A stretch of 64,000 bases of DNA from an uncultured Actinomycetes bacterium (GTDB lineage Bacteria > Actinomycetota > Coriobacteriia > Coriobacteriales > Atopobiaceae), in NCBI GenBank assembly GCA_900314645.1, contig OMWB01000006.1:1-64000 (forward strand). Direction: 5' to 3'. The position numbers were made by a program, and so were the translations under genes. Below the pieces are notes generated by a model. The model was not told the origin of the DNA. It made no database searches and saw only the letters and a list, made by a program, of their open reading frames with translations. Each line of letters begins with the position of its first letter. The stretch's first letter is position 1. Below are positions 36,962 to 41,179 of the stretch, piece by piece.

Positions 36962-37056
36962 GTGAACAGGGGACGTGTGAACAGGGGACGTGTTACTGTT
37001 CACGCTCGCCGCGCTCGTGAACAGGGGACGTGTTACTGTTCACGCTCGCCGCGCTC
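36962..37056. repeat. Tandem copies of the RAYT-associated palindromic unit
   Basis: Two directly adjacent 40-bp copies occupy 36977-37016 and 37017-37056, preceded by a 15-base partial copy (36962-36976). Each full copy begins with the 27-base palindromic unit GTGAAC-N15-GTTCAC (36977-37003 and 37017-37043). The second copy contains the stop codon and last seven codons of the transposase gene, so the first is a duplicate of the gene's own 3' end. Confidence 0.92.
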
Positions 37057-37809
37057 CTTGCATGCTTTTGAGATGACACCCAGTGAAAGCCCCGTCAGTC
37101 TTTGAATCTGCCGTACGCTAAGCCCGCGTTGCTTCAGCTTTGCAATAGCGGCATCTCTCTGCTCTCGTTCAAGCCCTTTGACGCCTAGGACGCTTTCTCC
37201 GCCAAGCACCTCGCGTGCGATTGACTGTGCGTGCTCGTCCGTGAGCCTGGACGTCGGTTTGTCGACAATCTCAAGACAATTGTCGTCCGGGTGCTCTGCG
37301 TGGTGAAACGCAACGAGTTGGTCCTTCCCGCCGAATGTTTCAAGCACAAGACTAGGAGAGATGTGTTTCGGCTTAAGCATGTATTCCGAATAGCTGCTCC
37401 ATTGGTATTCCAAGCCGCCAGGCAGCTTTGCCTTAACGGGATTCTCGTGGATGTATCTCACCACCGTCATGAGGTATCCCTCGGTCTCAACGGGTTCGCT
37501 TCTATAGCGCGTTCCAAAGAGAGAACCTACTCCACCATGAACTCGATTGAAGTAACCTGCGTAACTTGTCTGCAGCCTGTGCATGATGCGTGGGAGTTCT
37601 TCAAATGGTGTGTCGAGCAGAAGGTGGAAGTGGTTGTCCATTAGACACCATGCGAGTAGCTTTGCATGGTGTTCATCGAGCAGTGCGTCGAGACGGCGCA
37701 TGAAGAAAGAACGGTCGCTATCGTCTTCAAAGATGATCTGCTTTCCGAATCCACGATTAACGACGTGATACAAAGACGTACTGCTCTCTCTTCGCGCGAC
37801 TCTTGGCAT
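37033..37809 (-). CDS. REP-associated tyrosine transposase (RAYT, Y1/HUH)
   Basis: This 258-residue protein belongs to the Y1 transposase family that acts on single-stranded REP hairpins. His60 and His62 form the HUH metal site (CLMDNHFHLLLDT), and the tyrosine in VVRYIHENPVKA (Tyr119) is the probable nucleophile. The C-terminal third (about 130-258) has a helical DNA-binding character, ending in RGLSVRQIQRLTGLSLGVIS. The ATG at 37809 with GGGAG upstream is preferred over an upstream GTG/ATG. Both ends carry 27-bp palindromic units in opposite orientation. It appears intact, with no second insertion-sequence gene. Confidence 0.92.
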   Translation of the reverse strand: MPRVARRESSTSLYHVVNRGFGKQIIFEDDSDRSFFMRRLDALLDEHHAKLLAWCLMDNHFHLLLDTPFEELPRIMHRLQTSYAGYFNRVHGGVGSLFGTRYRSEPVETEGYLMTVVRYIHENPVKAKLPGGLEYQWSSYSEYMLKPKHISPSLVLETFGGKDQLVAFHHAEHPDDNCLEIVDKPTSRLTDEHAQSIAREVLGGESVLGVKGLEREQRDAAIAKLKQRGLSVRQIQRLTGLSLGVISKACKERGEREQ

Positions 37810-37892
37810 ATCGCTCCCATCGTTAGCTCGGTCGGTCTTTTTGTTATGCCCACCCGTCATGCCGTCCATTCAATGAGATTCGAATAGAGATG

Positions 37893-37919
37893 GTGAACAG
37901 GTACCCGTCCCCTGTTCAC
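37893..37919. repeat. RAYT-associated palindromic unit, right flank
   Basis: This 27-base unit runs opposite to the left-flank copies. Read on the minus strand it is GTGAAC followed by AGGGGACGGG and closes with GTTCAC, so it differs from the left copies only in the centre. It lies 84 bases before the RAYT start codon. Confidence 0.9.
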
Positions 37920-40639: not shown

Positions 40640-41077
40640 ATGGCATTTCAGCAGTGGAAAGAAGAGCACCAGGCGCTCTGGGAGTTCATCCTGTTCAACG
40701 TGTTGTCCAACGTCTCGACCGTCTCGCGTTTTGTGGTCACGTGGATCGGAACGGCACTCACGGGTGGTGCCGGAACCGTCGTGGTGTTTCTGGCCGAGTT
40801 CATCACGCAGGTGGTGAACTACTTCGTCCAGATGAAGTTCGTGTTCAAGTCCACGGCCGACTTCTCTAAGTCCGCGCCCAAGTACGCGGTGCTCGCGCTC
40901 ATCATCATCGTGATGAACTCGTTCATCGTGCCCAAGGTGGGCGAGTTGCTCATCAGCATGGGTGTGGCGGCAACGGCAGTCAACGGCGTCATCGTCCCGG
41001 TTGCCGGCACACTGCTCGCCGTGATCATCAGCTTCCCGCTCCTCAAGTTCTGGATTGCTCCCGACGACAAGAAGTGA
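40640..41077 (+). CDS. GtrA-family small membrane protein
   Basis: This 145-residue protein has four hydrophobic segments and the NVLSNVSTVSRFVVTWI and TQVVNYFVQMKFVFKS stretches typical of GtrA. Relatives help move lipid-linked sugars across the membrane during polymer glycosylation. It follows the GH3 gene by 35 bases with GAAAGG upstream and is probably co-transcribed. Its stop codon is part of the first palindromic unit of the following repeat pair. Confidence 0.88.
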   Translation: MAFQQWKEEHQALWEFILFNVLSNVSTVSRFVVTWIGTALTGGAGTVVVFLAEFITQVVNYFVQMKFVFKSTADFSKSAPKYAVLALIIIVMNSFIVPKVGELLISMGVAATAVNGVIVPVAGTLLAVIISFPLLKFWIAPDDKK

Positions 41078-41179
41078 ACAGGGGACGGGTTAGTGTTCAC
41101 CGTGAACAAGGGCGTTCACGGTGAACACTAACCCGTCCCCTGTTCACACACGGTGAACACTAACCCGTCCCCTGTTCAC
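41074..41179. repeat. Inverted pair plus extra copy of the 27-bp RAYT-type unit
   Basis: Three 27-base units lie at 41074-41100 (forward), 41121-41147 and 41153-41179 (reverse). The first two form perfect 34-bp arms (41074-41107 and 41114-41147) around a 6-base loop. They differ from the units beside the transposase at 2 of 27 positions. The GtrA stop codon TGA lies within the first GTGAAC. Confidence 0.93.

Follow-up and report, generated by a model that had tools for sequence, protein, structure and literature searches.

The window, a 64,000-nucleotide stretch from the genome of an uncultured bacterium of the Atopobiaceae, carries a RAYT gene (REP-associated tyrosine transposase-like, Y1/HUH) whose stop codon lies inside a palindrome and whose 3' end is duplicated. 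This arrangement raises the question of whether the coding end of the gene generates new copies of the palindrome, as an earlier note on this DNA had proposed, or whether the gene end is one of the places at which a mobile hairpin has settled. Sequence comparison, a structural model and analogy with known transposases together make it highly probable that the locus is a REPtron/TIRtron, that is, a single-copy RAYT, a HUH/Y1 single-strand transposase, placed between inverted copies of the putative hairpin that it recognises. The other copies of the hairpin in the genome would be non-autonomous and mostly arranged as inverted pairs.

The RAYT locus and its protein

The RAYT open frame spans 37033-37869 on the minus strand. 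Its start is most likely the ATG at 37809, which gives a gene at 37033-37809 (minus strand) and a protein of 258 aa, judging from the MPR.. start conserved in relatives and the probable ribosome-binding site GGGAG in front of it (37814-37818, minus strand, assigned by its sequence). The stop codon TAA (37033-37035) and the last codons lie within a 27-nt hairpin unit (37017-37043, minus strand) that reads GTGAACAGTAACACGTCCCCTGTTCAC on the coding strand, just as the earlier note had described. Together with the 13 bp of RAYT coding tail that precede it (37044-37056, minus strand), this unit forms a 40-bp segment that is present twice in tandem. The second copy, at 36977-37016 (minus strand), is identical to 37017-37056, and GTGAACAGGGGACGTGTTACTGTTCAC is found at both 36977-37003 and 37017-37043. 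To this duplication, already recognised, our analysis adds a third, truncated copy of the unit (15 nt, 36962-36976, minus strand), and the tandem array at the RAYT 3' end measures 95 bp in all. The unit of opposite orientation reported before the gene is also present. It reads GTGAACAGGTACCCGTCCCCTGTTCAC at 37893-37919 (plus strand), is separated by 83 nt from the start codon and belongs to the GGTACC subtype, as do the copies on contigs C34 and C43.

Profile searches and a predicted fold support the assignment of the window protein as a RAYT-type Y1 transposase. Pfam Y1_Tnp matches it, and NCBIfam REP_Tyr_transpos (NF047646), which is matched by 50 of 50 relatives at E < 0.001, gives it 57.7 bits, under the cut-off of 80. 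The catalytic pattern consists of H60-F-H62 and Y119; in the sequences of the 50 relatives, H60, Y119, H121 and N123 are invariant, and H62 and P124 are kept in at least 90%. Searched against the PDB, a profile of these 50 relatives found one sequence, TnpAREP (4er8, E 4e-4), with the HUH motif and the tyrosine aligned. This structure, in which a REP transposase is complexed with a REP hairpin, is the best PDB match both by profile and by fold. With the AF2 model of the RAYT (pLDDT 90.8), Foldseek places it at the top (E 6e-6), followed by the IS200/IS608/ISDra2 transposases. The galactosyltransferase matches from a single-protein phmmer search against the PDB were chance, and the profile search was used instead. 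In the model, three C-terminal helices (215-227, 232-239 and 243-257) follow the core. Matches to HTH profiles are weak, with HTH_23 found in 3 of the 50 relatives. The genome holds four Y1 genes, and those aligned to the window RAYT are 36-42% identical to it. A second RAYT of the genome (L016, G000:C13:119587-120369) has a unit of its own, GTGGGACAAAGGGGAGTATCC, with 27 dispersed copies, mostly in inverted pairs.

Dispersed units and their tie to RAYT genes

In the 3.04-Mb genome there are 13 matches to the full pattern GTGAAC-N15-GTTCAC and 29 to the exact half-unit GTGAACAGGGGACG. Since the reversed controls, exact in the case of the half-unit, gave 0 for both, these units are not chance matches, and the palindrome is not confined to the RAYT gene. 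The copies lie on contigs C5, C18, C27, C34, C38 and C43, where they frequently form inverted pairs or short arrays. They fall into two subtypes, GGTACC and GGTTAG. The family is modest, with about 11 dispersed sites. Either single strand of the unit folds into a stem of 7-9 bp with a loop, and this fold beats all or nearly all dinucleotide shuffles. In the flanks of the window-family units no common head was found, and the GT[AG]G tetranucleotide is absent. Just one dispersed site shares the contig of the RAYT, so no local enrichment near the gene can be claimed. This site comprises a unit of the GGTTAG subtype (41074-41100, plus strand), its inverted partner (41121-41147, minus strand) and another unit in tandem with the partner (41153-41179, minus strand). 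Two candidates were set aside. The pattern GTGAACNNNGGGACG had the wrong spacing and gave background matches only, and GCTCGCCGCGC, near the half-unit at C5:55940, resembles the RAYT coding tail but lies on the wrong side, shows no further match and was judged a chance likeness.

Three of the dispersed loci have features of their own. On C18 (L051:1482-1808 = G000:C18:46148-46474), head-to-tail 19-bp repeats of GTGAACAGGGGACGGGTTA, with a run of N inside, are enclosed by an inverted repeat. On C38 (L073:1465-1607 = G000:C38:51079-51221), an inverted unit pair sits within a longer palindrome, in which the left flank has gained an inverted copy of ~35 nt from the end of the right-hand gene. This copy now forms the C-terminus of the left gene, and the sequence of the palindrome suggests fold-back synthesis or template switching. 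On C34 (L072, ~1380-1490), another repeated palindrome-like sequence, CTGCAGGGGAATC..CCGTAG, adjoins the units and is also present in a related genome, G128.

Among 140 genomes of the family, a RAYT of this sort is present in 83. At least two window-type half-units were found in 11 of these 83 genomes versus 0 of the 57 without a RAYT (Fisher p 0.003). The units are thus not equally common in relatives that lack the gene, an outcome that the earlier note had set against a RAYT substrate. Half-units without a detected flanking RAYT occur in G060 (10, one contig), G075 (10) and G125 (9), and these orphans weaken strict RAYT dependence. The clearest link between a RAYT and its unit, as far as sequence comparison goes, is an all-or-none case. 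The RAYTs of loci L119 and L122 are 86% identical to each other, and the other collected RAYTs reach at most 53%. The exact 20-mer of their unit has 99 and 78 copies in their two genomes (G065 and G077) and 0 in the other 138. In these Coriobacteriia genomes (loci L290-L319), the unit is a 27-nt REP-like sequence with an AAAAG head.

The same layout recurs among relatives. We collected 127 RAYT loci, of which 126 were analysable (one is truncated); a few loci are represented twice, having come from two sources. In 99 of the 126, the 5' side has an inverted copy of a hairpin located at the RAYT stop or downstream of it. This hairpin lies after the stop in 63 and overlaps it in 36, the latter being a minimum under strict criteria, and further hairpins abut the stop. 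The stem sequence varies from RAYT to RAYT, and GTCCCC beside the 3' arm is constant in the 27-nt class. Across eight units of this class, 7 of 7 stem pairs are kept in all sequences and 6 of the 7 have changed on both sides, as was the case in 0 of 500 shuffles. In L170, L172, L175, L179, L189 and others, the RAYT 3' hairpin is followed directly by a conserved start of the downstream gene, ATGAGGGACGGGTTCGT; RAYTs of different genomes therefore precede the same gene. Taken together, the Y1_Tnp and 4er8 matches, the inverted flanks, the dispersed units and the RAYT-linked occurrence argue for the proposal of the earlier note that the gene is a RAYT with its own REP-type unit.

Units at gene ends and the origin of the duplication

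At 9 of the 11 dispersed sites the unit starts no more than 7 nt from the stop codon of a long frame, where random positions that do not fall wholly within a gene would give 20%, with genes called as mechanical ORFs (p 2e-5). At 3 of these 9 sites the unit itself provides the stop. The foot of the unit at 41074 gives the TGA stop (41075-41077) of a 145-aa gene (40640-41077). Relatives of this gene end in ..DDK followed by TAA or TAG; the window frame continues to ..DDKK, with the TGA of GTGAAC as its stop. Most relatives are without this unit at the 41 kb site, and the same holds for the other site compared. Of 21 distinct sites sampled in G065 and G077 (duplicates removed by eye), about 11 have a long frame that takes its stop from the unit, and the frame ends made in this way, ..KADK-stop or ..KS-stop, are like the end of the RAYT itself. 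Since host genes too end in units, the position of the RAYT stop inside one is not special. A unit at a frame end may be tolerated, as stop codons are present in its foot or loop (GTGA, AACAGTAA), and the RAYT stop would therefore be one case of a general placement rule.

According to the reading that we favor, a RAYT between inverted copies of its hairpin, the 40-bp duplication would be a later local tandem event, produced by replication slippage or by RAYT-assisted strand transfer at the hairpin, rather than the master from which the genomic copies were made. L107, L122, L166, L202 and L210 likewise have coding bases within direct duplications of their RAYT 3' ends, so the tandem in the window is of a recurrent type. 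In the alternative that builds on the suggestion of the earlier note, the RAYT 3' end is the master instead: its coding sequence would have evolved the palindrome and would spin off REP copies, among which the 40-bp tandem would be a recent one. This would account for the recurrence of such tandems in the five loci and for the AAAAG ahead of the dispersed units in G065 and G077, which matches the RAYT coding tail base for base. We nevertheless consider it unlikely. The dispersed units of the window genome do not carry the 13-bp tail. The AAAAG in G065 and G077 has sharp boundaries, with 82-93% per column and nearly random bases beyond -7. It also fronts units that end other host genes (KADK-stop) and therefore belongs to the unit and not to the RAYT. 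In addition, the hairpin meets the RAYT stop in varying frames among relatives, or lies tens of bases downstream of it.

Long near-perfect hairpins of species-specific sequence stand at the same gene ends in L253, L255, L271, L276 and L280, which are orthologous to the C38 and 41 kb sites; these are possibly fast-changing bidirectional terminators. The units themselves might likewise be transcription terminators or mRNA 3'-end hairpins that are kept for the host, with an incidental link to RAYT, as their positions at stop codons and between convergent genes and the unrelated hairpins, long and perfect, that relatives carry at these intergenic positions would suggest. This is quite unlikely, given that most RAYT loci have their own unit on both sides, that the unit of L119 and L122 shows all-or-none co-occurrence with its RAYT (2 genomes of 140), and that the two sites compared are without the window unit in most relatives. 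Least of all do we expect an assembly artefact behind the tandem copy, a very improbable reading that could appeal to the 52 contigs of this draft genome and to the N gap within the C18 unit array, but that meets a whole tandem of 95 bp, under the usual read length, and like duplications in other assemblies.

A 96% identical block common to the window genome and G128 includes a gene end with two units here and one in G128. G128 lacks the RAYT at the corresponding locus, where the two genes that flank it here are adjacent. Like the 41 kb comparison, these alignments show gain or loss, though not the mechanism. For the RAYT and its flanking hairpins, the inverted arrangement, the covariation of the stems, the dispersal, the cognate pairing of RAYT and unit and the placement at gene 3' ends are established at the level of sequence. 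By analogy with the biochemistry of TnpAREP and of IS200/IS605, the protein would fold out, nick and rejoin the single-stranded hairpin.

Relation to known REP and TIR systems

The rayt genes described by Nunvar et al. (2010, PMC2817692) are always flanked by inverted REPs, some REPs lie at or right after the rayt stop, and in four cases the rayt 3' end has turned into part of a BIME. TIRYT genes are accompanied by GGGGWSAS repeats, some of which overlap the gene 3' end (3'ov), and REPs that provide the stop codons of neighbours have been reported (Di Nocera et al. 2013, PMC3733652). Given these precedents, the arrangement extends beyond this gene and beyond actinobacteria.

Like REPtrons (Nunvar 2010, PMC2817692; NAR 2021, PMC8266576), the locus combines a single-copy HUH/Y1 protein with inverted units on both sides that are repeated in the genome and often lie near the rayt stop. 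Unlike REPtrons, it has a unit without the GT[AG]G head and with an invariant GTCCCC in the loop beside the 3' arm, its protein has a C-terminal helical extension, and its host belongs to the Coriobacteriia. With TIRtrons it shares a RAYT-like protein, flanking inverted repeats with a GGGG-type motif, some overlap with the gene 3' end and moderately abundant families, but its unit is a true short palindrome and one related family has ~100 copies. The window unit reads GGGGACGT/GGGGACGG and therefore departs from the GGGGWSAS of TIRtrons: GGGGAC is kept, and a G stands where GGGGWSAS has A. The relatives L078 and L083 read GGGGACAG. TnpAY1 subclass 2.1 has been described as probably the TIRYT group, and no REP-like sequences were found for it in the survey of Quentin et al. 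(2018, PMC6006769), whereas clear REP-like hairpins are present here. With its core followed by C-terminal helices that may be HTH-like, the window protein may resemble this subclass. IS200/IS605 elements (IS608, ISDra2) share the Y1 fold and the single-strand hairpin logic but differ from the present case, which shows no multiple near-identical copies of a whole element. Literature searches on RAYT with Collinsella, or with Actinobacteria and TIRs, found no papers, and one on trans-translation and REPs close to stop codons yielded nothing of use.

In sequence terms, the present case appears to fit between REPtrons and TIRtrons, with a TIRYT-like protein and true REP-like hairpins. REP/RAYT units are elements of a known kind, and this one belongs to a lineage in which they have barely been described and has a variant unit. 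What sets it apart from published systems is this unit, with no GTAG head, the invariant GTCCCC, the covarying stems and, in one lineage, the sharp AAAAG head. The chances seem even to us that Coriobacteriia harbor a distinct GTAG-less REP class that is mobilised by HTH-bearing TIRYT-like RAYTs. The unit would then act as a mobile stop-codon cassette, with AAAAGCTGACAAGTGACC... ending the RAYT of G065 and G077 as well as roughly half of the host genes at the sampled sites, many of them as KADK-stop or KS-stop.

The spread of REPs and the role of RAYTs for the host have been studied mostly in Proteobacteria. Small, recent, all-or-none families, with ~80-100 copies in two sister genomes and 0 in 138 others, and with a clear non-GTAG unit, would therefore make the recognition rules testable outside the known groups. 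In addition, the overlap with the stop codon would make it possible to test directly if a hairpin in this position reduces expression of the RAYT itself.
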